Assembly (NCBI GenBank): GCA_947172415.1
Contig: OX359201.1
Span: 6,312,501 to 6,376,500 of the forward strand
Reading direction: 5' to 3'
DNA from: Chondrosia reniformis
Taxonomy: Eukaryota > Porifera > Demospongiae > Chondrillida > Chondrillidae
Length of the DNA: 64,000 bases
Of this stretch, positions 8,201 to 47,800 are shown piece after piece. The notes below the pieces were generated by a model. It did no database searches and was not told where the DNA came from. It was given only the letters and a program-made list of their open reading frames with translations. Made by a program: the position numbers and the translations under genes. Position 1 is the stretch's first letter; each line of letters opens with the position of its first letter.

Positions 8201-11200
8201 TCTTACTCTATGTCTCCCGGTCAACTAAAAACACAAAAGAAGATTTAATTAAAAATTAAAAAAGTGTCAGTCTACATTAATTTTGTACTCAATTATAGAA
8301 ATTATGAGAAGTCACATCTGGTGAATGTTCAAATCCCTAGGAAAAGGTTCCTTTGAACTATTATGTGTCCGTCTTTTTAAAGAGCAGAGACTGAAAATGA
8401 AGATGTTCGCTTAATTATCAAGAGATTTCTATAAATACAGTGAATTTATAAATATATATAATAAAAATAAAATGTAGTTGTCAACTACCCTATTAGACTG
8501 AATTTACATATAGAGCCAGTACAAATAGTAAATAAATCATTAATTATTAAAATTACATACATAATAGTATAGTAATTGGTGGAGAAATCTTAACTAACTG
8601 TTAAAGACTAAATATTGAAAACAAAACAAAATAGTTCAGAGCGAGATTAAGACCAGTTATGGATTTAAAAATCTAAAATATTTCAAAGATTTCCAGTCCT
8701 AGAGACAATGTTTACAGGTGAAATAATTAACATTCCAAAGAATACTTCAATAGACATACATAGTCCAATTAATATACATATACATACATACATTCCAATA
8801 TAAATATCAAACTGTATTTTATGTTTGTTGGTGTGTGTGAGTACAGCTATAAGCGGTACCCCTATTGCATGGAAATGCATAATTAGTGATTGATTGATTC
8901 CTCCGGTGTGGTACTTCTTCCACGAAACATGCTACAACATTCTTCTCAACACACAAACACACACACATATATACGCGTCTATACAATAAGAAAATGATAA
9001 ATTAGCAGTAAATCAGAGATCAAGAGGTGCCAAAGGTCATCCTGACAGGTTAGTCATGTCTTTTTCAATTCTCACATGAATCAGATTAACTTTGAAAAGC
9101 ACCAAATCCTAAACAGTTACAAATCACTTAAAAATTTAATTAAATGGAATCAACTAAACCAACAGTTATTTTGCCATTTAAGGTAACCATGAGTGCGACT
9201 GTGTGTTTTGCTATCGAACTTGTTGACCTCAATTCTGAAACAGGGTTTAGACTGATTGGCAAGTGGGGTCATTGCTGACGACTATTAACACAATAATACA
9301 ACAAATGTATAAAGTTGCCTTTCTCATGCACAGAGCTAATTGATTAATGAGGGAAAGTGGACTTTCAATTTGACAAGAAAGGCTTCTCTCAGAAACACTA
9401 AAATGTAATGTAAATACACTCAACTCTCCATTATACTGTATATATATATACTAAGGACTCACAAATGATCAAGAAGGAGACAAAGATTCCCAGGGTCACT
9501 GATGAAGGGTTGAATTCCCAGAAACAGCTGTCTGGCCCAGTGGAGAAGAAGAGAAGTAGAAGGAGAAAACTTTGTATTCTTATCCATATCTTCCAATCAC
9601 TTCACAACAAACATGAATTAAAGTGACGATATTCTTACAATCATCCGATAATACTATAAATTAACAATATAATCTGTAAAATAACTACTTTATCAAAATG
9701 TATCCCCTCAGTTAGTTAATAATAAATATACAGGCAATTACGTATGTGATGAGGAAGCTATATATAAAAGAATTTAATGACTGAATATGAGATACATAAG
9801 ACTGCAACAATGTGATGCATGGAGTAAACACTAGATGGAGGAGGCTACGGAAGTTACCTCTTGGGTTGGGTGTGACAGTGTACATATACACTGATGAAAG
9901 TCTAGACAGAGAAATTGAAAAGATAGTAAGTACAGAAGGCTGAAAGAGGTGTGGATAAGGGTAGCAGGAGAGGAGTCAGTAAGGTCCTGTTGTAAATCAA
10001 TTATACAGTAACCATGACAACCCTGTTGCATGGATACCAGACAAGAACCTACTGTGAGACTGAAAGTAATTGAAGCAGTGATGAGGATTTCCTTGGATGG
10101 GGGTGTCACCAGGCTGGATAGACAGATAGATTAAGGAATGTGAATATGAGAGAATGTGCAAGCTATAGGAAAGATCCATATTATATGATAGAAATGGCTA
10201 GAGAACACAGATAGTATGCTGAAGCACAAAATTATGAATGGAGAAGAAGCAGGCCAGGGGGAGGAAGAGATCAATCGACAATCTCTCTCTGATTGATTAA
10301 AAAACCTACAATTGTCTATATTAGCAATCTTTGAACTTGTACCACACATAGCTATAGACATACATACTCATAATTATTTGTATTCACCTGGACCACCCAC
10401 TTTTAATTTAATGATTGACTATTTTAATGATGAACACACACATGTACATACATATGTGAACCTAAAAAGGAAATTGAAAGAATTAATGTTTTGCCAACAA
10501 CATAATGCCTAAGGTAGTCTGGTATTACCTACCACAGTCAACGGCATGATCCATGGAATTCAGTAAGAACAGCAATGGTTGCAATAGAAGCCAGTCAAGT
10601 GTCACGATAATAATTATAAGTTGCTCGGAAATTGTACACATACCAACTGATACATAATCACAGCGTAAGTCATTCATGAGTAAATATTTGCATAATGTCA
10701 CAGCTGAGGCATGTGGTGTATGTCTCAAATGTACTGAATTGAATTGAATTATGTATTTATATGATTGAATATATGACATTGGATATATTTGTATCATGAA
10801 TGTATATACCTGATATTTATATATAAATATAGTATTTCCATATGTATCAAAATAAATGTATTTAGAGAACATTTTTCAAAATTCCTTTCTTTCCGGAAGA
10901 GTGGGAATATGACAGATGATAGAAACACTGGGAGAGAAGAGTAGTGGTTGGAGGAGCAAGGGGAGGGGCAATGGGCGTGGCAAGGGGAGGGGCAAAGGGA
11001 GGAGTGGAGATTAAAGAAAGGTAAGAAAAGGAAGGAGGCTCATGGTCAGTGCATGTGCTCAAGTGTTGTGCTTTTATTATAATGGCAGAGTAATACAATT
11101 AGCACCTTAGTACATTAGCATAGGGTGTTAATAAGTGATGTTGAAATCTCCCCACAGACTGAAAGTCGTTTGACTAAGTGTGCGGCAAACATGCAGTGAG

Positions 11201-14200
11201 ATATCAATTAGCACTTGTAAGAGCTTGCCTGACCTAAATTGAAAAGTGCTACCACACAAAACTGCACAAACAATCAATCATGAGAGCAGCAGTTGTGGCA
11301 TGCCCTCATTCAAACTGAAAATAAATAAACTAAGTGGTACCAGGACATCTTATAAGGTATAGCAGTATCTTACCTATACAGCACTCCAGTAAGGTACCCA
11401 TACAGCACTCCAGTACACCTTAGGTACCTATGATGTTTATAGGTATTTAAAAAGTTTGTACTATCAGATCTCAAAGACCTTATAAGAAGTGTGTAGCTAG
11501 GCAATAGTCCTGTACAGCCTCCAATATTAAAAATCGTGATTAAGATAATTGAAATTTTATTAAATGTTATGAAGCCTCAAACTAAACCTTTAATACAATT
11601 ACTCTTCAGGCCATAATGTTTAGCAGTCATTAAAGTGGAACTAGCAAGTATTTCTATAGGTTCCTATAAAGAGCTTCACTCTATCTCCTGACAGAAACTA
11701 TAAAATTTCTCATGCAATAATATTTGAACTCCCTTTAACGTCATGAAAAATCTAATACACCATTTTCCTATATGCTATGCCTACTCTATAAAAAAGACAT
11801 AGGGAACCAAACTTGGAGAGAGCTTTGGATGAAGATACAGGAGTCTTTTCTTTTCTTTCTTCTTCTGTTCCACTGGGCCAGATAGCCTGTTTCTGGTTTC
11901 TGGGAATTCCACCCTTCATCAGTGACCCTAGGAATCTTTTTCTTTTCTTGATCTTGTGCTAAATCTAGGGGTCTATATACACAATTTCTTCAACAATGGC
12001 CCTTTGGATTCATAAGTACGTACACATGGATGCCTTATGACTTTGAAAGGGAAAATTAGTTACTATTCATTTCTCTCCTACAGTCAGAAGCCACTAAATT
12101 AAAAGGTGTACCTGAAGATGTGGTTAGCTAGCACTTTCTTTAGGCTATCAATTAGAAACCTCAAAAATGGGAAGTTATACCATCAAATATGCCTTAAAAC
12201 AATCTTCTTCTGATACTCTAAAATTAACTAGAATTCCTATTTATCAAAATTGGTTTAGCAGTCTTAATCAAAGGACAGCTGACAGAAGGCGATTTATCTA
12301 TCACACTTTCCAGTAACTATGGTAACTTTCACAGGCATATCAATTCGTATCAATCACAATAAATGGAATTAACCTATTTACAACTGTAATGAGACCACAT
12401 GTGATTAACTTGTATAAACAATTCATTACAAAGGTTAGGGAAAGTTCAAGGAACGCTTTCAGCATGTCTGCAATTAAAAATGTCTGCCAATTTTATTACA
12501 TTAAAGGGATAGGAGTGGTAAATGTCTGAGATCTCTTTCACCATTCATTTTTTTCCATTACGCACATTTAAGCTGTAGGCAACTTATTAATTAGTAACCT
12601 TTCAATTGCTACCTGTGAATCTTGAGATTTCATTTAGATGCCCCTCCCAAAGAACACTGGGCAGGATCTCTGATAGCTTGTTCCAATGATTAGAATTTAG
12701 TAAATAGTGGGACTGAAGACTAAAATACCTATTTGTTAGTATATATAGGAAGTAGCATTGCTGTAGCAATCGTAGTTCAGTGGCAGAGAACTGATGGTAA
12801 GCATGATTGGGTTCAATTCCCAGCAATTGCTTTTTTTATGTTTTTCTCTTCACAATGTTTGACCATAATTACTTTATGTACTCACATACTGTAGATGGAC
12901 ATCCGCAAGATAGAATACATTCATTAGATATTGGTGAAGTATGATCGAAGTTAAGCTTGGTAGTTAAAACTTTATGTAATTATGGCAACCACAAACCCAT
13001 TTTTAAAATTGTCTTGCTTCTGTAAATATTTGGAAAACAATTTAGAGCAGTTTTTTCAGTTGGTCAAAAGTTGTACAGAATTATATGTAACTTGAAACTC
13101 CAAATACACTATATATATATATATATTTATACTAATGTGGTAACAATTATTACAGTCATGTAGGCTAGAGTTTATTGGAATGAAAACATTTGATTCCTCT
13201 ACTTCGATCTGAAAATAACACTTTGTGCTGATTAAAACTGAGGTCACTGCAAATGCAGCAGTGCGCTGAACCCAATCTGTTGGGCTGTCAATTCCCTAAT
13301 CCTGCGCAATTGAGGTCACAGCATAAACAAAGCTTTTCATTATAGAAAAACAGTTCTTCTATCAAAATGTTACAGATGGCTTAATTAGATTAAAGGATTG
13401 TGAAATGTGATCTAAAACTGATTGATTTATATCAATCTACGTATGTACCATCAGGAGGGCTGAGAACATGCAAAGAATGCAGAAATCATTTAGTGAGGAA
13501 ATAGCATTTGCTACAAGCTCATGATCTTCCAAACATTCAATTAAATTCATCACTGTTCCAGTCGGCACACTATTCCATTGGATATTAACATTTAAAAAGT
13601 ATTTTGGACCTAAAACTCAATTAACAGTAAAATCTTGAGATCTTATGTATGGTGGGGGACCAAAGTCCCATTAAATTGACAACTAGTGATCATCAGTAAT
13701 TGTATTGGATCCAACGCAAATGAAATCATGTGCAATAGCTTTTAACCAGAAATAGCTGAATCTTGATAATTGGCTAGGAATTTTATTCCATTATCTAAAT
13801 ATTATCTTTGAGATGGTTCATCTTTTAGTCTTTTTAGCGTCTAGAGACACAATTGGTTCTTCTAGGATTCAGACGTTTTGACCCTGGGGTCTTCTTCAGC
13901 AAATGATGAACCCCCAGGGTTGAAACATCCGAATCCTAAAAGAACCAACTGCATCTCTAGACGCTCAAAAGACTAAAAGATGAACCATCTCAAAAGTTTG
14001 GTGCAGTTAGAAGAAATCCCCATCATCTAATCTAAGTCTTTCATTGGAGGGATATAGAGACTGCAACAGAGATACAAGTTTAAGTTTATTATTATTACTG
14101 AACCAATACTTGATTGCACTATTCCATTTACACTACTAACATTCACCAAGAAGTACATCAAATATTGGATTTGCTTTGGGTAATCAGAGTCTATTAAATG

Positions 14201-17200
14201 GCACATGAGGGTCAATCAAATGGTAGTCACTTGTGATATGATGGTTTAGTAATTTGTAACAACCTTTGTCCACTTAAAGCATGCGACATCACAGATCAGG
14301 GTCACCTCAAATATGCATGTATGGATGAGCTATGAAATAATACTCTTCCATACTACACCTGCTAATTCAAGCACGGACTTATGTAGATGGGACTGAGAGA
14401 TGGACTGAGAGAATAATCGATATGGCTATATAATACATAGTGCATAAAACACATGTACAAAGTAGCTAGCCAACTTGCGAAATATGTAGCATGAATTGCA
14501 AAACTTCTGGGTATCTCAGAAAGAACTGAGTCTTCACAAAATATCCATCAAATAGTGGAAATTGGGAAATTGAGAGACATTTAATTGGATAAGCACTAGT
14601 TCCTATCAATGCCACGCTCAGTAAGTTAATTACAATAAAATAAATATCTAATTATTAGTAATGCATGTAAATTCCTATGTCAAATACATCAGAGGTACTA
14701 AAGAATGCCATGCATACAGTACGCACTTTCCATCTGGTGTACAAAGAACATATGTCCTTTACACATACACTACAAGTGTTGCATCCAGGCTAGATGTAAC
14801 TTGTATGACTTTCACATTTACGTCAGCCAATACATATTCTATTTTAAGTGATACATTCTTCTAGAATCACCAAACAGACAATGGACTGAAGAAACGACTA
14901 ACCGCAGGAAAATACAGAACAGGTGTATTGAACCGCAAGAAATTTCATGAACAGGTGCACGGATAAACAACAGATGGTGGATGACTGCTCCATTGGCGAT
15001 ATTTACAGAAAAGAATAATGCTTGCAATTATGTCAAATTGGAGTAGAATCAGACGAGTAAATCAAATCTATCGTATATTAATAGAACTACAACCGCAGGT
15101 AATACGAGACAAAAGGACTGTACACAGCATTACAATATCTATGTGAAAGCAAGGGTAGATTAATAAAATGATGTCACAATCAGAAATGTATATCAGACAG
15201 ATGGCGAGTGTCTACCTCTGGCAGTCTATCCAATAACACTTGAATTTAAATGACCAATTGAATCAAGCCAAACAGCTGGCCACTTTTCCTATTCTTAGGA
15301 GCTCCACATACTGTATAACACCTCCATTTCGAATACAATTACACATACTGTACTATATAGTAGTACGTCAACCGGGCGAAGTCACAAAGGTCTTAACTTG
15401 GCCTAGGAACTGATCCTTAATAAGTTTAAGGTCATCCAAACTCACCATCAGAGCACCATTGACAAGCCCTAAGGAGTACAAAACAGCTGTCAGTGGTTCT
15501 TTGATGATTTTTCCATCTAGAATGATCAGAAGGCACTCACTATGTAGTTGGTTTCCACTGCTTCTTATATAGACTTTGGTCCACTACTTCTTATATAGGA
15601 CTTTGGTCCACTACTTCTTATATAGGACTTTGGTCCACTGCTTCTTATATAGGACTTTGGTCCACTACTTCTTATATAGGACTTTGGTCCACTACTTCTT
15701 ATATAGGACTTTGGTCCACTACTTCTTATATAGGACTTTGGTCCACTACTTCTTATATAGGACTTTGGTCCACTACTTCTTATATAGGACTTTGGTCCAC
15801 TACTTCTTATATAGAACTTTGGTCTCACAGTGAAGATAAGACTTCGGTCGGTCACTTGGCTGATTTGGCATAGCACACTTCTGATTAGCCATAATAGACA
15901 GGTCATGGCCACGGCATGGGCAGTCTGCAATTGAGTCACAAGTTCTGTTACATCATATACGTACGTATGAATGATAAGGATCTGTAGTACTTGTTGCAAT
16001 CATTGGTTGGTTGATAATTTATTGCTGACAAAGACCTAAGGGTTGAAGCTTTCAATACATCTTGCTAATGTTCAAAATAATTATCAACCATATATAATAA
16101 TGACCTTTGATACATGCCATTAAGTAATGACCTTTGATACATGCCATTAAGTGAATACATGATAAAGGTGCCATTTTATTTCATGAAACTGCTGATAATA
16201 CTTCTCATTAAGTAATTAAATAAAAAAATGCATTTAATTATTTCATACGGTGTCAACTGTGATTATTATCTTATGTCACTCTGGATTTACCCCATCCACT
16301 CATAGCTCTTGTAGAGTGTAATATAAAGGTGAACTACAGTCTACTTGATGAGAACCAGGTGTGCCTCCTTTCCATTTGATTTGATGGTCAGTTCAAATAT
16401 CCATGCATCAATCTTAGCAAATGACCAAGCAGCGACCAACTATGTAACCATAGCTACATCTATTACATGAAAAATTGAGAACATAAAGGAAGAGAATCTC
16501 ATATGAAACTGCATCCTCCTCCAAAGCTCTTTAAGTAAATAGGGATAGGAAACCATCTCTTCTCTCAAGGTCAGCCATGTCCATACAGTACATTCCCCGT
16601 AGAGGGAAATGGTCTTGCAGATTGCTCATGTTTCAGAGAAGGGTCCTAATCTTTGATCAAAGGAGCTCCATCAGATGGAACAAGATGACATTCACCTTCC
16701 CTTGGATTGCTTCAATGTGAACTGATTGGTCTATTATAGACATGCCATCTCAACTATTTTCAAACAGCTAATTAACTCCCTCAGCCCCTCCTCTCTCCAG
16801 TCACTCCCTCAACACCTCCTCTCTCCAGTCATCCCCTCAGCCCCTCCCCTCTCCAGTCACTCCCTCAGCCCCTCCCTTCTCCAGTCATCCCCTCAGCCCC
16901 TCCTCTCTCCAGTCACTCCCTCAGCCCCTCCTCTCTCCAGTCACTCCCTCAGCCCCTCCTCTCTCCAGTCACTCCCTCAGCCCCTCCTCTCTCCAGTCAC
17001 TCCCTCAGCTCCTCCACTCTCCAGCCCCTCCCTTGGCCCCTCCTCTCTCTCTCCAGCCCCTCCTCTCTCTCTCCAGCCACTCCCTCGGCCCCTCCTCCCT
17101 CTCTCCAGCCACTCCCTCGGCCCCTCCTCCCTCTCTCCAGCCACTCCCTCGGCCCCTCCTCCCTCTCTCCAGCCACTCCCTCGGCCCCTCGGCCCCTCCT

Positions 17201-20200
17201 CCCTCTCTCCAGCCACTCCCTCGGCCCCTCCTCCCTCTCTCCAGCCACTCCCTCGGCCCCTCCTCCCTCTCTCCAGCCACTCCCTCGGTCCCTCCTCTCT
17301 CTCTCCAGCCACTCCCTCGGCCCCTCCTCCCTCTCTCCAGCCACTCCTCCAGTAGATCTGTAGTTTACATCATATGAATTCTGGAAACAAGGAGTGCGAG
17401 GAGTGCGAAGTATCTTTGTTATTATCTGATATTTTTACAATTAATGTTAATTTTCTCTTTATTATCTTTTCCTTTGATAACTAAAACTAGAAACCTCGAA
17501 AAGATATACTTTAGAGTAATTAAAGCAATGTTCATTTCTATAAAGATAATCACTAGTATTTGCCTATAATATTACCACACACAAATGAGTAATGATTAAT
17601 ATTTATATGCTAAGACAATGTTGCAAATATGGTCCCCTTGAAGAGGTAGGGAGGGCATTTGTCCCCTTGAAGAGGTAGGGAGGGCATTTGTCCCTTGAAG
17701 AGGTAGGGAGGGCATTTGTCCCCTTGAAGAGGTAGGGAGGGCATTTGTCCCCTTGAAGAGGTAGGGAGGGCATTTGTCCCTTGAAGAGGTAGGGAGGGCA
17801 TTTGTCCCCTTGAAGAGGTAGGGAGGGCAGTTGTCCCTTGAAGAGGTAGGGAGGGCATTTGTCCTCTTGAAGAGGTAGGGAGGGCATTTGTCCCTTGAAG
17901 AGGTAGGGAGGGCAGTTGTCCCTTGAAGAGGTAGGGAGGACATTTGTCCCTTGAAGAGGTAGGGAGGGCATTTGTCCTCTTGAAGAGGTAGGGAGGGCAT
18001 TTGTCCCTTGAAGAGGTAGGGAGGGCAGTTGTCCCCTTGAAGAGGTAGGGAGGGCAGTTGCCCCCTTGAAGAGGTAGGGAGGGCATTTGTCCCCTTGAAG
18101 AGGTAGGGAGGGCATTTGTCCCCTTGAAGAGGTAGGGAGGGCATTTGTCCCCTTGAAGAGGTAGGGAGGGCATTTGTCCCTTGAAGAGGTAGGGAGGGCA
18201 TTTGTCCCCTTGAAGAGGTAGGGAGGGCAGTTGTCCCTTGAAGAGGTAGGGAGGGCATTTGTCCCTTTGAAGAGGTACGGAGGACATTTGTCCCTTGAAG
18301 AGGTAGGGAGGACATTTGTCCCTTTGAAGAGGTAGGGAGGGCATTTGTCCCTTGAAGAGGTAGGGAGGGCATTTGTCCCCTTGAAGAGGTAGGGAGGGCA
18401 TTTGGCCCCTTTAAGAAACAAAAGTTGCTAATTTTTAAAACACATTAACCAGGTTGCCCTCCAAACTTCTGCTCTATTCCCTCCACTTGTGATATTTTCC
18501 GAAACAAACTCCAAGATACAGTGCGAAACTAATTACTACAGTTGATATTGTCCTCGGCAATGGCTTTGCATATACTCACATAATATTGTGTTTCTCCCGG
18601 AAACATAAACAAAAAAACAGGTAATTAGTCCAGTACTACAAAATTTCTTCTAAGCAGTCAACTATGGCTACATTAATCAGATTAATATAACAATACAGCA
18701 AATCTCCCTATATTTGCGCTTACCAACCGAACAAATATATTGTACTTACATATTTAGTCAACAGCGACAAATCTCTGTAAAAACAAATTTTATTAGGATT
18801 AAAGTGACATCAAGGCCTTTCTATATAAAATTCTCACAGCATCAAAACTGCTCACCAAAGGATGAAGTACTAAGTTTACATTTCTCATAATTTCTCAATT
18901 AGAAAGAGATCAAAGATATCTACAATGTGACTTCATGAAACATAACTGAATTATTTTTCAAAGTGATGATGCCATTAATTATCATCCATCCCATTTCATG
19001 TTTTAGTGTATATGTTTCACATCAGATACAGTCAAACAGAAATTCCCAGAAGAATAAGGTGACAATGGGATATATTTTAAAATCGAAACAACATACGATC
19101 GTTATATGATTAAACTGCCACACAATAAATATACAGGCGTTATGCAACAGCATGTAATATATCAATTAAATTTCATAGCTGGCTAGCTATATAATTATAT
19201 GTAAGAGACATTTAAAAGTTCATACTGTGTATCCCTCTCATCTGGGCACACGTGCACAGAAATATTTCAGAGTTGGCCTCTTAAAATAAGGGAAAGAACG
19301 AGGTCAGAGGAAGGTGTTCTGGTTGCTCAAAGGCCGGTGAGAAGGACGGTTTACTAGACTGAACCTTCATCTTAGTTGTAAGGTAGTAAAACAGTTAAAA
19401 ACCCACCATAACTCTGTCTTGTACTTCACTGAAGGTCAAATTTACACTATGGAAATAAGTAGACTAAACTATAATACATATTATATCAATGGGTGGATGG
19501 CTGGGTGGTTGGGTGGATGGCTGGGTGGTTGGGTGGATGGATGGGTGGTTGGGTGGATGGATGGGTGGTTGGGTGGATGGCTGGGTGGTTGGGTGGATGG
19601 CTGGGTGGTTGGGTGGATGGCTGGGTGGTTGGGTGGATGGCTGGGTGGATGGCTGGGTGGATGGCTGGGTGGTTGGGTGGATGGATGGGTGGATGGCTGG
19701 GTGGTTGGGTGGATGGCTGGGTGGTTGGGTGGATGGATGGGTGGTTGGGTGGATGGCTGGGTGGTTGGGTGGATGGCTGGGTGGTTGGGTGGATGGCTGG
19801 GTGGTTGGGTGGATGGCTGGGTGGTTGGGTGGATGGCTGGGTGGTTGGGTGGATGGCTGGGTGGTTGGGTGGATGGCTGGGTGGATGGCTGGGTGGATGG
19901 GTGGATGGCTGGGTGGTTGGGTGGATGGATCGATGGGTTGATTAGTGAAGGGCCGATGGATCTATGGACCATTATAGCTTAAGAACTTCACCACTCACAC
20001 TTTGTTAAATAGAAATGCTCTTCCAGTTGCTCCATGGAATCTCTGCAGACATACAAATATAAAAGCTCATCTCATTTTAATGACATGAAATTTCAAGTGA
20101 TACTTCTCTCAACACATGAGAAAACATGCTAATAAAATGCTGACCAATGTAAATATGGCCTCTCTCAAATCATGACCCAAGGATACCTCCACTAAGATTA

Positions 20201-21058: not shown

Positions 21059-24000
21059 ATGGAAGGATCAAGCTCGCAATCTACCAAGCAACGACCGTCT
21101 GCAAGTGATTCCTCCAGCAACCAGAGCGTTCGCAGTAGCACTGACGACGAGGATGAAGACGAAGAATTGCTACGGCTGTACCACCAGAGGCCCCCCTCGC
21201 TAAGGATGACAGAGGATGGCAAGAAGGAAAGAGACCCAAAGTATCACTGTCTCATGGAAAAATTAAGGTAAGTGCAGCAGTTGAATGATCCATATTTAAG
21301 TGACATAATGCCAGTAGGCTGTCAATATAGAATATGTGCAGTATGAATGTTATATATACAGATATATATTATATATAGATAGATAATAGTTATCCTATAT
21401 AGTGATAACCACCATGGTCAAATTTGGCAACAAAAGGGGAGGAGCCAGGAATGGCCAACTTTATTGATGGCTAGGGTTTGGTTCTTGGAAAGTGTACATA
21501 AAGACTTCTGGCGTCTCAGATATACAAATGATTTCATTAGATTGGTTATTTGCATAACGTAGATGTGGTCTCCATGAGACACGCATCATATTCCACATTC
21601 CATTCCATAGTAAATTGCAGGATTCTCCCCTTTATATTGTTTCTTAATTATATGGTTTATGAATCTATGTTAAGGATATAAGAGAAGGGTTCATGGCCGC
21701 TTAGAATGATAGGAAAGTGTTGACATCATTGCTTTGATGTGACCACATTGATGATTGTGATTTCATCTACAGATGCAGCATCTGTATATTTGAGTGCCAC
21801 TTCAAAGTAACCCTAGTTTTTACAAGTAATATCTTAAATGTAGCTTATGGGCTATTGACTAAATTTCTGCAAACAAAATCTCTCATAAATTGCTACTTTT
21901 CCTCTAACGTGATCCTAATTACGTACTGTGACATCGTGTGACAAGAATTAGATCCTTCATCAGTAATGATTTCAGAAAGCCTTTCTCATTAATCGGATTA
22001 ATTGTGTATTATGTGAATTAATTTTTCTATAAATGATCCAAGAAAGCAATCAATTAAAAATTACTGATATTTACATATGTATATACGTAATGTGACAAAA
22101 GATATATATAACCGCACATGTCTGTGCAAGGGCTATAATGAAAAATGAATATTCACTGAAAGCTATTATGTTGGACCAGCCAAGTGACCCGACTTATCTT
22201 GGGGAACTGAAGTCCTATTAAATTGTAGCCAGAGATCTATGTATACAATTGAAATTCTAGGATGATTGTATGCAGAATTATCAGTTTAATTTTTGTTGGC
22301 TGAAGTCACTGTTTCTGCCTTTGTTCTACAAAAGGTCTGCTCCTTAGCTGGGATGCATTGCCAAGTGAAAAAGTATGTGCATCCTTTTAATGAAAGGATT
22401 CTTAATTGTAATTTAAATCAGAGCACATAAAGATGTGATAATATTGACAATGTGAGGTGTAGTTACCCGTTTTGTAGGACTTCCACCTCTCTGGGCTGTC
22501 ACCCGATGTGCAGAACCTGCACCTCTTTGAGCTGTCATTACATTTTTGTAGGACTATATATACGTATATGAATTTATTATTCATTTATCACTGTCTATAT
22601 GTATATATCAGAATCATTTGACTCCGGACTTTACCCTGTTCAGACTTCCATTTTATGCCATACTGATGAGTCCTCATGAGGAGAAAAATAGCTGTCTATG
22701 GTTCAACCATCTTTTTGAGTGTCTAAGGGGGTAAAGGTCTGGTTCCCATTAAGTGAACTTCATTAGCTCATTGCTACGTCAGGAGATAATAGTGGTAAAT
22801 CCATGGTGATGATAATCAAAGCTTTTAGATCAGTTTTAAGATCTTAAAGTTCTCAATTTTCTATCTATATACATATATACTGCACTAATGTGGTTGACCT
22901 AAGAAAATGGCAAACAATGTGGATGACATAGAGGCTTGACAATAAGCATTATAGACAATATATAATGAGGAATCAAACTACATACATTCATCTTCTTGTC
23001 AAATTAATTTTGCCCTCGGCCAGTATATATAATACACTCTAACCTCTGCTGCTTAAACTAATAGTATCAAATCTGTTACAGCTAGCTGTAGTAATAAACA
23101 AGTGAAGTACTAACACATGCATGCTGTCTGGCCCAGTGGACCAGAAGAAATAGAGAAGGGACTCTTGTATCCTATATATCTTTGTAGTATGTAGGAAAAT
23201 AGTATTTTGGATTACTCATACATACGTACATATATATCTTTCTATTTATATAGAAGAAAGCATACAAATCTAGCAGTTAAGAAGTTGAGAAAAACACTCA
23301 CCAAACCACCAATCAAATCTTCAATGATCCACACTATTGAGGCTGCAGTTAGAGACATTCAGGTACCATCTCAATTCAATTCAATGTTAAATTTCAGTTC
23401 CATAAATTATCTAGGCTTCAAGTGTTGAATGTGTAATTGATTATTATTTCATGGCTGGGCATTACCACACTCCGTAGTGATGCTACACTTGCTCTTCACA
23501 GAGTCCTTTGAAGCTGTATGTCACGTTGTATTGCGAAACAGTAATTAACTAATAATTCAGTACCAACACCAAGGAATGACGAATAAAATACTAGTTCACA
23601 TATTATACTGTATAAATTCATTGCTACGGTTATACTAGGTTACGAATTCTCACTGAGCTTATACGTACGTAGCACTGTAAACAACACTGAAATTTACTTT
23701 AAAAAAATCTAATGTTTCAATCCGTGGGTCTTCATCAGTGACATACGATGAGAAACTGTTTGAAGTAATTTCAGTGTTGTTTAAAGTGTTATGTATAAGA
23801 ATTCATAACCTAGTTTACATATGTATGTATATAAAACCACTTTTTTGTTTCCATGGCAACTTGTTATGCTTCCTGTATATGCTCTGTTTACAAGCACTAT
23901 ATTAATAGTAAACAAATTTCTGTTTTTAAAAAAGATTACAAGCACTATAATAGAATGGAAGTTACTGTATATATGTTGAGCTATCTATATATAAGTATGT

Positions 24001-26198: not shown

Positions 26199-29100
26199 TT
26201 AAGTAAAACTGAATCCATGGCCTCCAAATTTCAAAGCAACCTCCAACCTGTCCTTGAGAATCTCCATCGTGGGATATTCAGGAAGTTTGAGCAAGTTAAA
26301 GCTATATTATGTATAATTAATCAGTGGCAGGTGACCAGTAGGGAGAGTTATATAACATGTTATAATGTAAACATGGGCTCTAATAAAATCACAATTTGGT
26401 ACTTCATTAGAACACAAGTGTGATAACTTCCTGGCTGGTAGTTAATATGTGAAAATTAAATAAACTTAATGAAATCACATGTACATTCTTGCTTGAAGTT
26501 GCACCTACGTATACTACTAGTTACTATGTGCAATATTTTAAATGATTTTACTACTGAACTCCAGGAAAAGGTATTTTTGCATAAATTCCATATTTATCTA
26601 TTTTCTAAACTAACCAGGTGCTTGCTGAAGGCAGGATGTATTCTGTATATTCAACTTTAGTGATAGTGAATTTAGTAGGTCCACTAGCACCAATCAAGCA
26701 TGCAAAACCTCCCATTGGCACTCTTGAACTGCACAAAAAACAAAGAAGCCACAATCTTTACATTATGATAAGGTAAAGGGGAACAAAGGATAAAAGTATG
26801 GGTTAAACTAACTATTATCAACCATAAAATAACATTAGCGACACTTGGTTTATCATGCTTATGCTAATTGGAACTAAACACTTGGCTTCAAAGCAATAAA
26901 GTAAACCTCCTTCATGAGGTAAGTATTAGAACTATACATCAAAAGACATCACATGAGATAATCTGAAGAATTCAAAGGAATTTACAAGTGCGATTCTTTT
27001 GATTAGGTTGACTATGGGTCCCTGTGAAGATCTAGTGAATATATGGAGTAACCACATGTGAATTATCCTAATTTGTTCCGCAGAGTTACAACACAAAGCA
27101 AGTAGACAGACAGACTGCAAATCGCTAAACAATTGGTTTCAAATGCCTCTATCAACTTTTAACACCAAAAGACATACTGTCAGGGTGACAAAATTGCATA
27201 TTTGGTCTTAATTTACATAATATTTCAAATAAAGACTTTCATTTTCCCTAGCAACTTACAATATATGTGTAATATATTAATAGGATAACCTCGACTATGC
27301 GGATTAATCTCCATTTATAAATACAGAAAAGGTGGACTATTGAAATGTACCAAGGCAAAACCCATTGTAATCTGCTATACATCACAACGTTAATTAGAAT
27401 TGATTTTCTCGTTGTGGGTGATAGCGAATGGGTGGATACCATCTTCATACATTATGCATCAGTGACCAGAATTCTCAGATTACCTTCCAGTAACAAACTG
27501 TAGTAGCTTTGCCTTTGTGGATTGATCATACTCACCAACGACTTCCCAGAACCACTATAAGACATTAGACATTAAACAGATTGTATCTACAAACATACAG
27601 ACTGCATTACCATTACAATACATACAGATTGTATCTATTTATATACATATAAATCATATACTACATATATAAATACAGACTGTACGTATACTATTACATA
27701 AATTAAAGACCAAGAAGAAGACAAAGATTCTCAGGGTCACTGATGAAGGGTAGAATTCCCAGAACAGCTGTCTGGCCCAATGGAGAAAGGAAGAAAAGAA
27801 GCCTAACTGTATCCTCATCCAAAGCTCTACAGGTTTGCCCCAAGTAACTAGTCTAAGAAATTTGTGTTTCAGTCTCTTTATGTTTCCTTAGGTTTATAGC
27901 TCATAGTTTTTGGAATTATTATATTTCATACATGAGGACTTCACATTTGCCATATTAATTAGGATCTAAAGCTTCAATGTCATCACCTAGTAAGTGAACT
28001 TCAATTCTACCCATTAGCTCACTGTGCTCCTTGGGAGACATGAGTGGGTGGGGTAAATCCAGGCTAGGGTCAGATGATGACAAAATTGTTTTGGTTGCGA
28101 TACTTAATAAAAATCATACATGTATTGTGTTGTGTGCTTCAGTATAGTCAGACTGGTAGTCAGTGTTGGTCTGCCAGTCTTCAATGTCAATTTGAGGCAG
28201 TCCGGACATTAAGAGTTCCTATAGGGGAGACACAACAACGAAGGGATACAATAAACAAGCTAGTGAGAGATCCTGTACGCTTGATTATACAGCAAAAGAT
28301 GTACAAACCATATACACAATACAAATTGCCAACAACCATAACTTAAAAACTTGTTTAATGCAACAAGAGTTGCTGTAAGAGCAGGAAGGTAAAAGCCATA
28401 TGACGCAGTGCACATCCAAGTGAGATATGAAACTGCAAGTACAGTTCAATATAAGAATACTATTACAAGTTCTATATTGCACCAAAGAAGATATCTTTGT
28501 TATTCTTAGTTAAAACTCTTTTCCCATCCATTCCTGCCTACTTACACAGGACATGTACCAAACATTGAGGAGATTATGTATACGATGTAGTGGATTAAAA
28601 TATCTTGCCTCTTGGTTGCTATAGTTACCTTTTGACTAAATTCCAAGTTCTTAAAATAAAAATAAAGTGTTTATGTGTGTGTTTGTGTTCATTATTTACT
28701 CACAAGTTCGTATTCATCAAAGAGTGACAACAAACTAGGAGGAATAATTTCATGGAAGCCAGAAAGGAAGCTTTGGATTTGGGAATGAATTGCTTGGGTC
28801 AGCTTAAGTTCAGCCAATAATTGTACATATTCATCCTACATACACGTAGACACATACATAATAGAGTAGTGAGGAATGAAACCAGGACCATTTTAATTGA
28901 ATTCATTGCTTGTCTTTTTTACGGATAATTATTCAAAATGGCTGCCTACATGAGCCAAAGAATTGCTAAATTTAACCTCAAATATGGCCATTTGAAAGTG
29001 CTGTATGGAATAGCCTTGAATCAATACTTAGCTAAGAAAGAAAAGCAATCTCAATTCATACAAACTGGAGGGACTACGTAGCTTACCTTATTACAGTCAG

Positions 29101-32100: not shown

Positions 32101-35100
32101 TAAGACTTTGTCTGTTCATTTTTTTGCTAGCTAAGCTTGACAAATAGACCTTCCTTCTCACAGGGGGGACACTTTGAACAATAGCAGCTGCAACATTCTC
32201 GGAAACTTCAAGTATATTACTGGCCTTTCCTGTTAGTGAAGTGTCTTTTCTTAGGTGACCTGATACTGTCTCAGTGGTGTCTATGGTAAAGGAAGAATAA
32301 TCATAGGACAATGTGTCTTATAGAATTAAATTTTTCCAACTTCCACATTGGAATGTAAAAAATGGTATATCGCAATAATATCGGATCGAATCAGTAATTA
32401 TCGAAAATCGCCTACCATGTTCTGGGTCAGTTTTGCTTATCTCGAGATTGAGAAGGTCAAACCACGACTGCAAGGCGTCCCAAATGGGCTTAAAGACATC
32501 AAACACAGATGACACAAGTTGTGATGGAGAGGAAAGCGGCTCTTCATAGTTAGAAAGAATCCTATTCTGGGTCTGTGGAGGAGAGTTTGCTGATGAAGAG
32601 GAACTCTGTCTTTCTCCTGCAGAAGTATTCCTTCTTCGCTGTTTAACCTTAATGAGGTTAATATCCATTGCTGGTTCATAAAGAGAACAGACTATTCTCA
32701 TTCCTCTTAGAAACTTGGGAGTGAGAGCCGTGGAATCACTGTTATTACTGCAGATAAATGTGTGGTCATAGGAAGATGCACAAGGGAGAAGGGAGTGAGC
32801 AAGAGGGAGAAGGAGAGAGAGAGGAGAGAGGGAGTGGGAGAGAGAGGGAGAGATTAGAAGAGAGGAAAGGTTATAACAGAGTATAACAAGGAAAGCATCA
32901 CAAATAAGTGGGTATTAATGGAGTAAAAGAGATAACAAAATAAAGGAAGACATAAAATTAATTTAGAAAACAGTGTGACTGGGAGATTGTTAACTTACCT
33001 AAGAAGCTCCATTCCTGTTTGATGTACTTTACTAGCCAACCTCTCCAGTATGGTGGCATCTATAGTATCACTTAATGTGTTACTGAGGGCTCTTAGTGCT
33101 GACAAAACCTGTCCAAAAACAAGTGAAAAGGTACAATTTTGTTGCAACCCTAGAGAAGAGACAACACTACCTGTTCTTCTGGTAGCTTCTCATCAAATGC
33201 AAGACCAATTACACGACTAAGTAATCTTGGGTACTTCTCAAGAATCATTATGGTACAGGAATTATAGCCATCCTAATAAAATAAAAGGTCAAACCACAAG
33301 TGTTTACTTTGGGAAAAAGTTGATTTAAATAGGGTTGCGAAACTATAATAAGTGTGTTGTATGAGCCGAGAGAAGGTTAGCATCTCCCTCGATAAGGACG
33401 AGAACGTCTTCGGACGTATACAACACATGGTTAAGGCCCTGCCACATACTTCGTGGCGTCTAACCAATTTTTTATTCTATGAGTAGAAACGCCGGTACAA
33501 AGCCTTCTACTTCTACTTCTATCGAAGCCGTCGACCCTGTCGGACGAGACGATGTACGCTTAATAAAATTACCGTTATCAAATGTAAAAAAATCGAACGC
33601 ATTCCTTTCATTAGCAAGGTAGGCGTTTGTGTTTAAACGAAATCGTAAAAATTGCGAGATCTAAAGACGTTTAACTTAGTCACGAAGTTGCCGTCTTCTT
33701 CCTCGAATCTATTTTACCATATATGGGCATATGGCCTACGACTCTGAAATGTCTCACTTTAACACACAGATCCAAGGGATGTACGCCGTTCTTGTCGGCA
33801 ACACAATTAGCTCCATAATCCAGCAATATCTTAAGGCAATTCACTTGGCCATTTCGACATGCACAATACAACGGCGTCCTTCCATGACAATCTGAAATGT
33901 TACAATCTCCACCCTTTGAGATTAATAGAGTGACTGCCTAAAGAGAAATAAGAACAGTCTCAATATAATTTTGCGGAATATACAAGTGCGGAATCATGCA
34001 AAGAATCTTGTAAACAAAAGAAGCTCTTAAATTTAAGGTGAAGAAGGACTAGCTTGTACAAAGTGCTATTGAGATAAGCTTACAACATACAAGAAATATA
34101 TGTGACCATCCTACCTTAGTGTGTCCATTTTGGCATGCAAAGTGTAATGGTGTTTGGCCTTGTGTATCCTAATGATTTAGAGAGGATGGTAAGGAATAGT
34201 GATAAACCATTGAGGTACCTTGAGAGAAGAAAAATAATTCCCAATCTCTCAGCAACTTACTGGAGCTGTTGGAGAAGCTCCATGATTTAAAAAGTTGACC
34301 AAAAGTTCTACTCTTCCACTGCAAGCTAACCAGTGCAGCTGAACATGTAATAAGAGAGAGAGGAAATTAGAAATAGTGGTTCACCTCAACAAGTACTAAC
34401 CACTGTCAATCCATTTGTATCACAGAGTGTCATATCTGATCCAGCATCTAGCAATCTCTTCACACATTTCATGTGACTGAATGGAATATGACACAAGAGA
34501 GAAAACCAATACAATAATTTACATTACTGTCACAATAAAATTTCTGTAAATTGTTAATAAACAAATGTATGATAAATGGTACAGTTAGTATTGGGCACAT
34601 ATAACACTTGTGTAGCATGTAAAATGCAAGTTAGCACCATATACCCATTCCTAGCAGCATGATAGAGGGCATGTACTCCCATCAAGTCTTTTGTGTTAGG
34701 GTCAGCCCCTCGCTTCAGAAGGACATCAATGCACTCCAAAGCTCCCACACTACAGAAATTAAACAACGATATGTTAGAAATTCAATGACTTTTTTGATTG
34801 GAAATATCATAATATATGCATGCTTGTATTTGAACAAAGGCATGAAATCTTTAATATTGTAATATAAATTAACTTGGAAGCCTCTATCAGCCACTTAATT
34901 ATAATATGACATATTAGATGATGAGTTCTGTAACAGTGTGAAACAAAGTGCTTCAGTCTGTAGACTTTTATCAGCTCAAGCAGCACCCTAAGTCAAACAC
35001 TGCACACTAGGGACACCAGAACAGTAACTTAGGCGCTGCTTGATGCTTGGTTACCTTGCTCCTGAATGGAGAAGGGTACGCTGGCTCCGCCCCATCTGGT

Positions 35101-35386: not shown

Positions 35387-35641
35387 CGTTTTATCCCTCA
35401 CCACTTGATCACCTGTGCTCGCGATAAGGTATATAGGAGCTATGATAGGAATACTGCATGGGACTTCCCAATAATGATACTATAAATAGCTCAAAATGTT
35501 ACTAAATTTAATTCTTTGCTCGTGTGCTCCATTAGTACTTTACGACATTTAACGTTAGCTTTCGTTTCGGTTCAGTAGGCGTGCTCCACGCCCCCATCCC
35601 ACCAGAGCGTACGAGAGCAGTTTAGGAAACATTTCTCAAGA
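35387..35641. promoter_or_regulatory. Bidirectional promoter HACE1 / LHFPL
   Basis: 255 bp between divergent start codons, relatively CpG-rich, including a GGCGTGCTCCACGCCC stretch at about 35578-35593. No clear TATA box on the LH side. Confidence 0.5.
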
Positions 35642-37434: not shown

Positions 37435-37678
37435 TATATACGCTGGACTAAAGTACCTACTATGCAATTTTAGTGTATTTTTGTAAATATTTACATTGTG
37501 TGTGTGTGTGTTTGCATATCATTTATGCTTCACTAATGTATCTGTATATAATTTTCAAAATTCATAATTTAGTTATACGCAGATATTATCTTATTGACAA
37601 GCTGAGCAGCAAATCAACTTATTTAATTCAGCACAAGAATAATTCAGTCATTCCACACAAAACTGGAAATATAAAAGG

Positions 37679-40911: not shown

Positions 40912-41443
40912 TTTGGTTAGTAATTATCGTTTGCTGAATATCGATATACTCAAAGCTGACGTCATAATCTATGATCATTCTAAAAGCGTAACCAAACGAA
41001 TGGAGAGTTAAACAATATTCAAAAATTTCTGAGTATTTCACAATACTAATACTAGCAAGTGTCTGTTCTAGCTTATCAGAATAGCTGTTCAGAACACTGA
41101 CTGGACAAATGACATCTTCAGCTCATCCAAGGAGCTGATTGCAGTGGTCTGTTCAACAACAGATCTTGTCTTTATCTCATTCTCCTACAACTTACTGTTA
41201 TTCATCTACCTCTTCCTAGGAGATTTGTTTTCATCTTCTACAGCAATTTCCATGGTTACCTGTAATAATGAGAAAAGAGAAGATCTGAAAGATACCCCAT
41301 AATATGGATATCTTTCAGACCTTATCAAAAAGGAAAATTTATAAAGGTGGTCTGAATATACAAACACTAATAATAACTCTCTCGCAGACAGACTGAGCCC
41401 AATGCACCAAGATACAAGCAAAGTAAAAAGCATATATATATAG

Positions 41444-41735
41444 AGAAGATGACCTCGGATTGTGACAATCTCTCAAGAAGAAGGCAGTGCAGATCTACGA
41501 GGTCGCATCAATGAGAATAATCTTGTGGATTTCTCAATTATTCAATGGACTACGTCAGACTAGTGGTGAGCGAAAGAATTTATTAATTAAAATTAATCAG
41601 ATGCCAAGTTATACATTGTGATCCTTGTTTATTATATCTGTATCATGCTATGAAATGAGAATAATTACTGCTTTGTATATGAACAGTCTTTTGGAAGACC
41701 AGCCAATGTCGTCAAAGCTTGTCAGATTGCTGCTC
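41444..41735 (+). pseudogene. Decayed duplicate of COP1 exons 18-19
   Basis: Bases 41444-41560 align with COP1 exon 18 (47966-48090): ATGACCTCGGATTGTG versus ATGACCTGAGACTGTG, later CAGATCTACGAGG and CATCAATGAGAA. After a short AT-rich spacer, 41655-41735 aligns with exon 19 (48400-48488): AATTACTGCTTTGTATATGA versus AACCAGTGCTTTGTATATGA. A TGA replaces the TGG codon and other changes break the frame. The spacer occupies the intron position, so genomic DNA was copied, not mRNA. It lies about 140 bp upstream of the COP1 start. Confidence 0.8.
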
Positions 41736-41877
41736 CATCGACTGGTCGAAGTCCAGACCTGTATAACCCCTTAAACCATGAGTAACAGTATGGGTTAATG
41801 AGTGTGGGCCTGTTAATTCATGCCTGTAATAGTTCAGCCATTCTTTCTCTACGTATTGATTCTTTTGACTGTTTCAA

Positions 41878-44800
41878 ATGAGTAGAAAACGTAAGAGAAG
41901 TACTACTGGGCCGGAACTCTCGGATGAAGGCTTTGGTAAGTTAAGCTTTACCAACCAACTGTAAACTACTAAATTAATAGTTATCGATTTCTCTGAATGA
42001 CAGCTGGAAAGAAAGGTTTCACAGAAAGTGACTATATCTGGTGAGTGAAGTTTCTCAAGAATAAAGTTTTAATATAATGAAAAGAAATAAAGTTTATAAA
42101 CGGGATAAAGAAACTTAAGAGTAACGAATTCTTTTAATCTTCTTCCTATAAAAATAGCGGAAACGATATAGCATGTAAGCGTATCGTCAATATCTGGGCC
42201 TTGAAAGTTTCCCATGTGATTAAGAACCCCCTCGAAAGTAAATTAACGGAGGTCGACCTTTATTTGCTCAAAAGATAAGCATAAAACGAAATTTCGCAAC
42301 AATCCCCTTTCAGTACACTCCCAATCCCTCACCCTATACCACAACATGTTGTCCGTCTCAATAGCTTTGCTAGTGTTACTACGTAAGCTTGTTGAATGCC
42401 TACAACTAACTTTGGATAGTTGTGTAAACTGTAAAAGGCATGTTAGTGTACGCCTGTCATAACCTAGGCAGGATGTTTCATGTCAACAATTAGCGTGACT
42501 AGGGTCAAGTAGGATAAGTACTGCGGCTGGAAAAGGTCAGAGGTCCCTTCTGATCAACAAAGAGGTCAAATTTCCCCCCACAGAGGTCAGATGGAACAGT
42601 CTAATTATATCCTGCGAACACCTCCTGGCTTTTGTATAGAGTTGCCACCATCATATAAACTTGTTTAGAAATATTGTTAGGCACGGGGGTGGGCAAAGCC
42701 TTAGTAAGCCAAGGGCAGGATTATTCACGACATAGATCAAAAGAAAAACAGCTTATTTGTTAAATTCAATGACTTACGGGCGACTTCTGGAGGCGGCTGG
42801 TACACCTATTCATATCTCCCCTTCCAGTCCGATATGTTCTCAGATATTGACTGAACCTCATAGTACCATCTGTGGACACACTTTTTGGTAAGTATACAAC
42901 TCCACCAGTACAATCTATTCAATTGAGCCACCTCCCCTCCACCTCCCCTAGTGCACAATGTATCACTGGTGCGCTCCAGCGAAACAATAGCTGCCCCCAG
43001 TGTAAGACAATCTTGAAGACCAGCAAAGCCACAATTCCCAACCATTTTGGTGAGGATTGTCACAAAAATGCAGACTATTGTATCACTTGAGTTTATTTCA
43101 CTTCTTCTCTCAGTTAATACACTTTTGGCAAAATACAAATTTCAAAAAGACACAATCGACAAAGTTAGTCATGATGCCCATGTTACTCTTACCATGTCAA
43201 CAACACGAGTTGATAGAAGTTTGAATGATTCCTCTGAGAGAAAGAAGAACGAACCATGTGGACGATCTCACCGAAACGCATCGAAACGCGTGTTGTCTTC
43301 GAGATGTATTCGCGCGCTTTATGTTTTCGATGCGATTACAGTCTCCGAAATGGACCTACGAAAGAGCTACGTTTTGCGGTACATGACACGTCGACCAGAA
43401 AGGATACTGCACTTTCTAGGCTGCTTGCATTCTGCTTATAGGCTGCGGTTAACTTTGTGGTCGGAAGTGTTAGTATAAGTCACTATATATGAAATTAACA
43501 CTGAATAGTGTTAGTACAAATGGTTAAATACTCTCCTCGTGTCTATTGTTTCTACATTTTGTAGCACAAAGTAGCTACAATAGTAAAAGATGTGGAGAAT
43601 CTTGACTCAAGTGGTAAGTGTGACATGTACTTCTCTCTTGGAGGGATAAGGTCTGTGTATTAATAGACTTGCCTCCTGTACAGAATTCAGGGAGTTGAAG
43701 AGATATGTCGATGAGAAGGAGCAGAAGGAGGGTTTGGTACGTCACATGCACACTTCCTGTTATGGAGCAGCTGTATAGGCACACAGAAATGACATTTCCA
43801 CCTACACACACGACTTACTGAGGTAGGCAGCTCTATTACCTACTTACTGAGGTAGGCAGCTCTATTACCTACTTACTGAGGTAGGCAGCTCTATTACCTA
43901 CTTACTGAGGTAGGCAGCTCTATTACCTACTTACTGAGGTAGGCAGCTCTATTACCTACTTACTGAGGTAGGCAGCTCTATTACCTACTTACTGAGGTAG
44001 GCAGCTCTATTACCTACTTACTGAGGTAGGCAGCTCTATTACCTACTTACTGAGGTAGGCAGCTCTATTACCTACTTACTGAGGTAGGCAGCTCTATTAC
44101 CTACTTACTGAGGTAGGCAGCTCTATTACCTACTTACTGAGGTAGGCAGCTCTATTACCTACTTACTGAGGTAGGCAGCTCTATTACCTACTTACTGAGG
44201 TAGGCAGCTCTATTACCTACTTACTGAGGTAGGCAGCTCTATTACTTACTTACTGAGGTAGGCAGCTCTATTACCTACTTACTGAGGTAGGCAGCTCTAT
44301 TACCTACTTACTGAGGTAGGCAGCTCTATTACCTACTTACTGAGGTAGGCAGCTCTATTACCTACTTACTGAGGTAGGCAGCTCTATTACCTACTTACTG
44401 AGGTAGGCAGCTCTATTACCTACTTACTGAGGTAGGCAGCTCTATTACTTACTTACTGAGGTAGGCAGCTCTATTACCTACTTACTGAGGTAGGCAGCTC
44501 TATTACCTACTTACTGAGGTAGGCAGCTCTATTACCTACTTACTGAGGTAGGCAGCTCTATTACCTACTTACTGAGGTAGGCAGCTCTATTACCTACTTA
44601 CTGAGGTAGGCAGCTCTATTACCTACTTACTGAGGTAGGCAGCTCTATTACCTACTTACTGAGGTAGGCTCTATTACCTACATATGCAATGCAGCACTTA
44701 CAGCATCTAAACAATGCTAAAATGGTGGCCAAGCTGAGATTCAACCCCAGACTGATTTGCATTATTTGCAGCAATTGTAAAATTGGTATACTTGTGGTTT

Positions 44801-47800
44801 TATTATCACTTCACACTGTGACAGTGAGTAATTGGCTGGTTTGTCATTTAATACTTGCATTACAGGCGGCAAGGGTCTCCCAGAATGCAGCTCTGATGTA
44901 CGCATTGACCAAGATTACAGAAAAGAATGAAGAGGTTGGGCAAACGTATAATCAGTGTAATGGTTATGATGCAATGGTTATAAAACAATATGGCAGAGAA
45001 TTATTTAAATCTCTACAACTACTTGTTGTCCTATATGCTGATAACTGTTATATTAGGATTGGATTCTTATGTTATAAACTGTTTCGATTGTCTGTACTAG
45101 ATGCTTTCAGAAACTGAAAAGAGATTAACAACAGTCAGATGCCACATATCTATAGCAAAAGTGAGCACACAAGCGAATGTAGCCAAAAGAGTAGTCTATT
45201 CTGTCCATTGTTGCACTTGTGAAATGAATGCATTGTACCTTCACTGTGTGTTACCTGGTCTCATCTGTTTAAAAAGAGTTTCAGCCTCTGTGTTTCATCT
45301 CTATCCTTTTAAAAATGAAAACTTTTAATTCTTGTCCATTTGTTTTCTATTTGTAGGAAGAAGAAAGTAGTTTATCAGAAGAGAATAGTGAAGTGGTAAA
45401 AGAAGGCAATCTCAAAGGGTTCAAACAGAAAATGGCTATTTCTACCTCACAGACCTTGCCAACCTTATCTCAAGAACCATCTTCACAGCTCTCCACATCT
45501 TCTGATGGACCCTCACAATTAGTTTCTTCCTATGAAGGACCTTATTCACAGTTCACTTCTTCTCCTGAAGAATCTTGTGTACAGACTTCCCAACCTCTCC
45601 CTTCTTCTTCTAGACCACCTTTGACAAAGGAAGGTCTTTTAGACTCCAAAACAGTGAGTTGGACTCAATAGCGACTCTACAACATGCAGCTCTACACGTG
45701 CAAATCTTCTCCCTACTCACACTGCCACGTTTTTCCAATGAAATACGTGTACTAACAATATACCAATTCGGTATTCATTCTGGAAAAATCTCGCCCAATC
45801 TCGCCCAGTCTTGCCCGAGTTTGCTACTTCAAACCAACACGTTCGATGTAGCTATGGCTTTGCTATGTAATTCAACGTATGATGACGTATTTTCAATACA
45901 TTTCGGGTTTGGTTTCAAAATGTATATATGGATATGTAAGCAATTTCAATTTCTAACTTACTTATATGGCAGCCATATTTGTATATTGTGGTTAACAATG
46001 AATATCATTATTGACAGGTGAACACTGGACAGGTTAATTCATCAAAAATGGTTAAAATTGATTCCTGTCTGGAGGAAATTGAAGCTTTTTATTACAAGAC
46101 TTGTATTAATGCCAAAGGTATATTTCTTGGAAAATATGCAACAACTTGTCACACTTTTAATTTGTATATTGGCACATTGTAGAAGATGGATTGCCAGAAT
46201 TTACTAAGGAATTGGCCAAGTTTCTAGAATACTCTAAAATGAGAGATCTTGCAACCATAACTTTTGGAGAAGGAAGCATTCCAAGCTCCTGTATAGCTAG
46301 CTGGTAAGGCTGTTCCTGAAGTCTGAAGTCTGAAGCTTGGTCATATGAATAACATTTTCCTACATGCTAATAAAAAAGCCTATAGGGGAACTAAACCTGG
46401 AGAGATCTTTGGATGAAGATACAGGAGTCTTTTCTTTCTTTTTCTGCTCCACTGGGCCAGATAGCTGTTTCTGGGAGTTCCACCTTCATCAGTGACCCTG
46501 GGAATCTTGTTCTTCTTCTTCTTAGAATTGTTTGTGTTATATGCATGCAGTGAGAAGATGACTTGCTGCTTTACACAATTAAGTTCATTCTGTAGTATTG
46601 AATTTAATCGAGACTGTGGTCTTTTTGCTGTTGGCGGGGTGACACAGAAAGTAAAGATTTATGATTACGAAGCCATTGTTCGGAACAGTGTGGCGCACCA
46701 CAGCCCTGTCATGTGGATTGACTGCTCCAGCAAACTCTCGTGAGTAAAGCTAGCCACTTACCAGGTGTTGCCACAATAGACTGTCCTGAGTAAAGCTAGC
46801 CACTTACCTGGTGTTGCCACAATAGTTAGATATGTCCTCCGTTTCTGCTCAGTGTATTCTACCATGATTACTGTAGATCATCTGCAGCCATCGCTGAGTG
46901 TAGTTTGGGCATTTTCTCAAGGGTGTTTAAATTTCTGGTTTTTGGACCTGACCTTTATAACTAGAATACAAACTGTAATTAGTTGTGTATATCTTTTAAA
47001 TGTGCTGGGAGTGTCTTTTAAATGTGCTGGGAGTGTAACATGTGGTTTGCAATGCACGTGGTCAGGTCACTGTCCTGGAATTCCTACCACTCGGCCGATC
47101 TGCTGACTGCAGACTATGACGGGTCACTCAGCCTCTACGACGCTGCCACTGGACAGAGAATAAAAATGTTTCAGGTAAGCAATGGTTCTGACCTAGGGGA
47201 TTTCCCTTTGCACATGTGCTGATCTGATTATTTGAATAAAGGAACACGAAAAGAGATGTTGGAGTGTACACTGGAGCCCGGTCAATCCCAACCTTTTTGT
47301 GTCAGCATCTGATGATTGCAGAGGTAAGTGGCATTAGGGAAATTCCCAATAATTCCCCCGCCTATCCTGTTCTGCTGCTAAGGTCTTGTACTAATACTTT
47401 AGGTAGTAGCGCAGTTGGAATGTAATGTTGCATTGATTTACCTGTAGTAAAAGTTTGGTCAAAGAATTCTCCCGGTGCCATTGCAACATTAAACTGCCAA
47501 GCTAATGTGTGTGCCTGCAGGTTTCATCCTAGATATGCCAATGTTTTGGCTCATGGAGGTGCTGGTAGGTTGTTGTCATGTGACCTGATCATGTGACTGA
47601 TCATGTGACCTAATCATGTGACTGCATGTGGGCATGCCGTTTTCCCAGATCATCTAGTGCATGTGATGGATTTCAGAAATTCAAAGGAAAGCTACTCTAT
47701 GTTAAAGGGACATAAGAAGACTGTCTCATATTTGGAGTTTATCAGCAATGAAGAACTGGTTTCAGCGTTAGTTGTCACATCTTCTTCTCTAGCTTTAGTT

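Follow-up and report, generated by a model that had tools for sequence, protein, structure and literature searches.

Metazoan non-long terminal repeat (non-LTR) retrozymes have been described as tandem repeats with circular RNAs (PMC7229834, PMC7761336). Here we compare them with family C, a repeat of the kidney sponge Chondrosia reniformis, of which seven copies or fragments were found by family profile search in the stretch of 64,000 nt analysed here (‘the window’; C13:6312501-6376500). Like those retrozymes, family C is small, non-coding and low in GC, carries a type-I hammerhead layout with a weak stem III and is dispersed in an animal genome (PMC7229834, PMC7761336). Unlike them, it consists of dispersed monomers, has a TATA-linked 5′ end and a 3′ end of its own, and is without the G10.1-C11.1 pair at the base of stem II. 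Mispairs at this position do occur in nature: axolotl hammerheads mispaired as U-U where stem II begins have been described, the axolotl hammerheads of that study cleaving weakly as monomers and better as dimers (PMC7229834), and natural U10.1-U11.1 hammerhead variants exist (PMC3088659). Family C resembles both in having a 10.1/11.1 mispair in a natural, repeat-borne motif; its own mispair is A·A, for which the available parts of PMC7229834 and PMC3088659 give no natural example. The hammerheads of Penelope-like elements are also type-I, with a weak stem III, and reside in retroelements (PMC7761336), although, unlike in their case, no coding element is linked to family C, none having been searched for. 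By title, we found no paper on sponge hammerheads or retrozymes in the open-access literature, a coverage outside which most subscription papers fall, and the word ribozyme is absent from the main text of the C. reniformis genome paper (PMC12181767).

The best reading of family C, in which our confidence is little better than even, is that of a retrozyme-related element, similar to short interspersed nuclear elements (SINE-like), whose RNA is partly cut before reverse transcription. Family C itself is real, abundant, hammerhead-bearing and SINE-like; it is close to the retrozymes and, by the anatomy tested, not a member of them.

Family C in the window and in the genome

In the C. reniformis assembly (117,379,552 bp, 15 contigs), to which all genome-wide counts refer, the hammerhead core pattern of family C has 420 exact matches (218 + 202, with positions known for about the first 105) as compared to none for the reversed control, and a 21-nt piece of the tail has 364 as compared to none. 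The family C consensus itself fits the hammerhead descriptor, a layout that recurred in 1 of 1,747,458 dinucleotide shuffles of that consensus. The element is about 220 nt long and dispersed, with a consensus GC content of 0.401. On its profile model of 230 positions the motif extends from position 51 (GGGTCA) to 96 (TGGCCC) and includes CTGATGA at 57–63 and GAAA at 79–82; stem II is formed by GGG and CCC (65–67 and 75–77) with A64·A78 at its base, stem III by the palindromic ACAGCTGT, and the predicted cut falls between 90 and 91. The longest copies keep a TATA box: on the separate model of this longer 5′ form, TATATAAG begins 31 nt before CCAAGG. When 78 copies were placed on the longer-form model, 33 had their 5′ start at 8–13, the rest being scattered from -61 to 46.

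An earlier note on this DNA, made from its letters alone, had reported four hammerhead-like copies sharing all motifs, a fifth beginning at the cleavage site, a conserved flanking body and an A/A at the base of stem II. The four copies are found where it had placed them, while the intact core is confined to copy 1, with copies 2, 3 and 4 lesioned. The flanking body is indeed conserved, as an element of about 220 bp plus the longer 5′ form, and the A/A was rightly noted, being present across the family (73 of 78 countable copies). The claim for the fifth copy fails, as its homology opens at 23123, with GCTGTC before TGGCCC, 6 nt 5′ of the predicted cut (23128/23129). Two truncated copies come in addition to those of the earlier note, one at 6613–6682 and, weakly, one at 16480–16631. 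All seven are listed below, with model positions from the profile.

6613–6682, plus strand: family C 3′ fragment, no hammerhead (model 157–227)
9446–9630, plus strand: family C copy 1, motif at 9493–9538 (model 4–191 of 230)
11742–11969, minus strand: family C copy 2, motif at 11875–11928 with an insertion after GAAA (model 9–228)
16480–16631, plus strand: family C 3′ fragment, weak (model 104–229, E 4e-4)
23123–23220, plus strand: family C copy 5, 5′-truncated (starts at model position 85)
27700–27837, plus strand: family C copy 3, motif at 27734–27778 with one A of GAAA missing, 3′ tail differing (model 17–160)
46348–46520, minus strand: family C copy 4, motif at 46454–46498 with a stem-II pair lost and a stem-III pair broken (model 29–214)

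On a base-by-base reading, copy 1 is the one place in the window where GAAA, the GTC triplet and stem III are all preserved; setting aside the A/A common to the family, its core is the only undamaged one in the window. The TATATAG of the longer 5′ form is present upstream of copy 2, at 11979–11973.

Substitution divergence from the consensus has a median of 0.088 (minimum 0.032, maximum 0.298; 72 copies). The 11 core residues and H17 are retained in 64 of 79 rows, most of which were fetched for the motif: loci L009–L068 were picked for motif content or likeness to copy 4, and the family A loci (see below) for hammerhead content, and statements on motif integrity are therefore biased. Conservation was also compared by segment in 37 copies obtained without regard to the motif: identity to the consensus is highest in the motif, at 0.917, versus 0.862, 0.815, 0.865 and 0.794 in the other segments. 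L017 and L048 are one place, as are L009 and window copy 4, and both are double-counted in the 99-row profile set and in the 78-row 5′-end set.

Comparison of candidate target-site duplications in 75 rows yielded no clear signal: the typical match length equals that of the null, and scores of at least 9 were seen in 6 of 75 rows versus 6 of 300 null pairs, with several such scores falling in DNA rich in TATG/TACA. Among the 15 neighbouring family C pairs within 600 bp there is no regular array; two pairs are same-strand near-whole units, at L023 (404 bp apart) and at L011 (separated by 10 nt and resembling a nested insertion). At L022:1473–1818 a full family C copy (model 7–228) is followed directly by a copy starting exactly at 91, either a template jump or a nested insertion.

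Starts at the predicted cut

Family C has two classes of 5′ ends: that at 8–13 of the longer-form model and a second one at the predicted cut. In the fetched DNA, profile hits starting internally, from position 57 on, number 18. Six of them start at 91, one at 90 and one at 92, that is, 8 of 18 within one base of 91; the others start at 70, 85 (window copy 5), 102, 104, 107, 115, 119, 130, 150 and 157. The start at 70 (L023) is an internal deletion rather than a clean start and is retained among the 18. The site had been named beforehand by the earlier note, and the binomial probability of six in 16 at one fixed site of 172 is 3e-10, calculated for 16 trials where 17 rows remain after L023 is left out.

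For the whole genome we used a strict count, requiring three mismatches upstream and an exact anchor downstream. It gives 24 starts at 91, 8 at 90, 6 at 92 and 4 loci at 93, and the Poisson probability of the 24 is 1e-11, 2e-8 and 4e-6 against a background of 4, 6 and 8, respectively. In the position-90 class, three of the eight read CAGCTGG, which is a small deletion and not a start. All eight position-90 matches sit on C12–C14, whereas the 91 matches are scattered. The four loci at 93 derive from 26 matches, since 23 of these belong to one tandem array (G000:C3:7259521-7260686), where many lie about 31 bp apart and a family C piece has grown into a small satellite.

The cleavage site is asymmetric. 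When the test was mirrored, to count 3′ ends at 90, it found 3 in the genome, and the cut site is therefore not simply a two-sided DNA breakpoint. The seven flanks of the 91 class that were fetched, all selected from cases in which ACA precedes the start, are mutually unrelated. If the fold made a reverse transcriptase stall, the expected stopping point would lie 3′ of stem I rather than between stem I and C17. Judged by both the internal starts and the strict genome counts, 5′ truncation points are not random, and the idea that 5′ ends lie at the predicted cut, while wrong for the fifth copy, holds for other copies in the genome. We consider the genomic footprint of cleavage in family C suggestive.

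Canonical hammerheads in the same genome

The Rfam hammerhead model RF00163 has 65 matches in the C. reniformis genome, 51 of them over the cut-off, with none in the window and none in 14 control genomes. The matches that were read belong to two other families, A and B, nearly all with GAAACAGCTGTC. Family A combines a stem I of GCCATA...TATGGC with a stem II of GTCC/GGAC, and family B a stem I of ACCACA...TGTGGT with a stem II of GCCC/GGGC. When the consensus motifs of the three families are set side by side, which is no statistical test, stems I and II vary yet stay paired, the A·A in family C excepted. Families A and B share with family C the exact GAAACAGCTGTC, the stem lengths and the cleavage position; they differ from it in the canonical G-C at the base of stem II and, in the case of family A, in tandem or inverted units and in having no 5′-end peak at the cut. 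Direct repeats 354–355 bp apart and inverted pairs are seen for family A in L071–L073, and its tandem units are like those of the metazoan non-LTR retrozymes. The earlier note had called family C retrozyme-like; of this description, a small, non-autonomous and dispersed family with a type-I hammerhead layout stands, while the retrozyme label is better suited to family A, family C being made of dispersed monomers with their own ends.

Two stretches of family A lie in the window, the first of which was absent from the list of the earlier note.

22638–22879, plus strand: family A copy with a canonical-type, decayed hammerhead at 22657–22702, CGAAAC having become AGAAAAAT (model 126–387)
27986–28092, plus strand: family A body fragment (model 229–332)

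The window also contains a U6atac minor-spliceosome RNA gene at 33354–33475 (Rfam, 101.9 bits) and minisatellite-like stretches at about 7405–7969, 15565–15999, 16726–17434, 17596–18444 and 19341–19982, which give rise to repetitive long open frames in several reading frames of both strands.

Cleavage weighed against its alternatives

In the reading that we favour, family C is a retroelement of about 220 nt, non-coding and SINE-like, the RNA of which most likely starts some 31 nt 3′ of the TATA box, near model positions 8–13, and would contain the internal type-I hammerhead-like motif at 51–96. A fraction of the transcripts would be cut between C17 (position 90) and U91, probably by the hammerhead itself, and a reverse transcriptase that is presumably borrowed, i.e. 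supplied in trans, would copy uncut RNA as well as the 3′ cleavage product (91 onward, with the 3′ tail kept) into new sites.

A considerable body of evidence weighs against this proposal. A·A takes the place of G-C at 10.1/11.1 in 73 of 78 copies and the standard pair is present in 2 of 78; a genome-wide search with a single canonical G-C pattern gave 0 matches. The 10.1/11.1 pair is the most conserved after A15.1-U16.1, and the U10.1-U11.1 mismatch is reported to support more cleavage than any other mispair (PMC3088659). The search with Rfam hammerhead covariance models, which the earlier note had suggested, returned no match in the window either at the gathering score or at E<=10, nor in the 201 nt around copy 1 alone. 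Compensatory changes in stems I–III, which it had also suggested, are absent within family C, with paired fractions equal to the shuffle means over 79 rows: 0.919 versus 0.919 for stem I (422 of 459 cells), 0.934 versus 0.928 for stem II and 0.923 versus 0.924 for stem III. This lack of covariation is expected if copies drift after insertion, yet it gives no support. The folding energy of family C is no better than that of shuffles (z 0.05; -0.10 to 0.91 for the window copies), while the same test separates a family A motif from its shuffles (z -2.80). At the cut of family A, which has canonical cores, no 5′-end peak is seen (0 of 77 rows, 28 of which start at 161 or later), and so the family C peak needs an explanation of its own: either a cause other than the ribozyme, or another route to DNA, in which a linear 3′ product takes the place of tandem or circular RNA. 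As for the peak itself, a position-97 control gave 13 matches and 1 reversed, with a shorter and less specific anchor that makes it not directly comparable, and against a background of 13 the Poisson probability of the 24 starts is 0.004. Moreover, half of the 24 starts at 91 (12) have the sequence ACA|TG, which could be favoured by a CATG-like target; without the ACA cases the excess is 12 versus about 4–5 (P 0.002).

Much of this would follow if the motif were a hammerhead fossil, inherited from a canonical repeat by a founder that already had the A·A, with activity abolished or nearly so; the peak at 91 would then arise from cDNA ends joining a CATG-like target by TG microhomology, or from other RNA processing. 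The family-wide A·A and the lack of a match to the canonical pattern searched are in keeping with this explanation, as are the lack of covariation within family C, the ACA that precedes half of the 24 starts, the recurrence of CATG at element ends and the missing peak in family A. A TG derived from the target, however, predicts that starts at 93, without the TG, should be common, and only 4 loci were found; in the six local starts at 91 the preceding bases are never ACA. The scarcity of starts at 93, taken together with these six, argues against a TG supplied by the target alone. The element has other TG dinucleotides as well, with no second cluster among the 18 internal starts, and the fossil would have to be reconciled with the motif being the best-conserved segment. 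On balance, we judge this explanation rather unlikely.

It is improbable that family C is a circular-RNA retrozyme of the kind proposed for metazoan non-LTR retrozymes, in which a unit freed from a tandem transcript by two hammerheads is closed into a circle before being copied. While the layout is type-I with a weak palindromic stem III, the size and the GC content (0.401) are in the reported range, and tandem units do exist in this genome in the form of family A, most family C copies stand alone, with ends that two hammerheads do not set, and the 15 neighbouring pairs form no regular array. The full copy directly before a 91-start copy at L022 would fit such a mechanism, but may also be a nested insertion. 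Least probable of all is a tRNA-type SINE, in which TGGCCCAGTGG, from 91, is the A box of polymerase III, the short copies are the original ones and the hammerhead-like head was added. By eye, TGGCCCAGTGG is a perfect match to the A-box consensus, and a B-box-like AGGTTTAGTTCCC lies about 60 nt downstream, although this second match is weak. Such polymerase III promoters, however, would not be expected to place the start on the first base of their A box, the T run CTTTTATTACAG is located before the 3′ end, and a TATA box precedes the other 5′ class.

Given the unusual mispair, the catalytic activity of family C, as judged from sequence, is uncertain. That a natural A·A hammerhead is active in the sponge, makes the 5′ end of a SINE-like RNA and leaves its footprint in dispersed copies is possible, and we put it forward tentatively. 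Genomic 5′ ends clustered at a predicted cut would make it possible to test for in vivo cleavage with nothing but DNA, and the tolerated hammerhead core would be widened if the A·A variant proved active.

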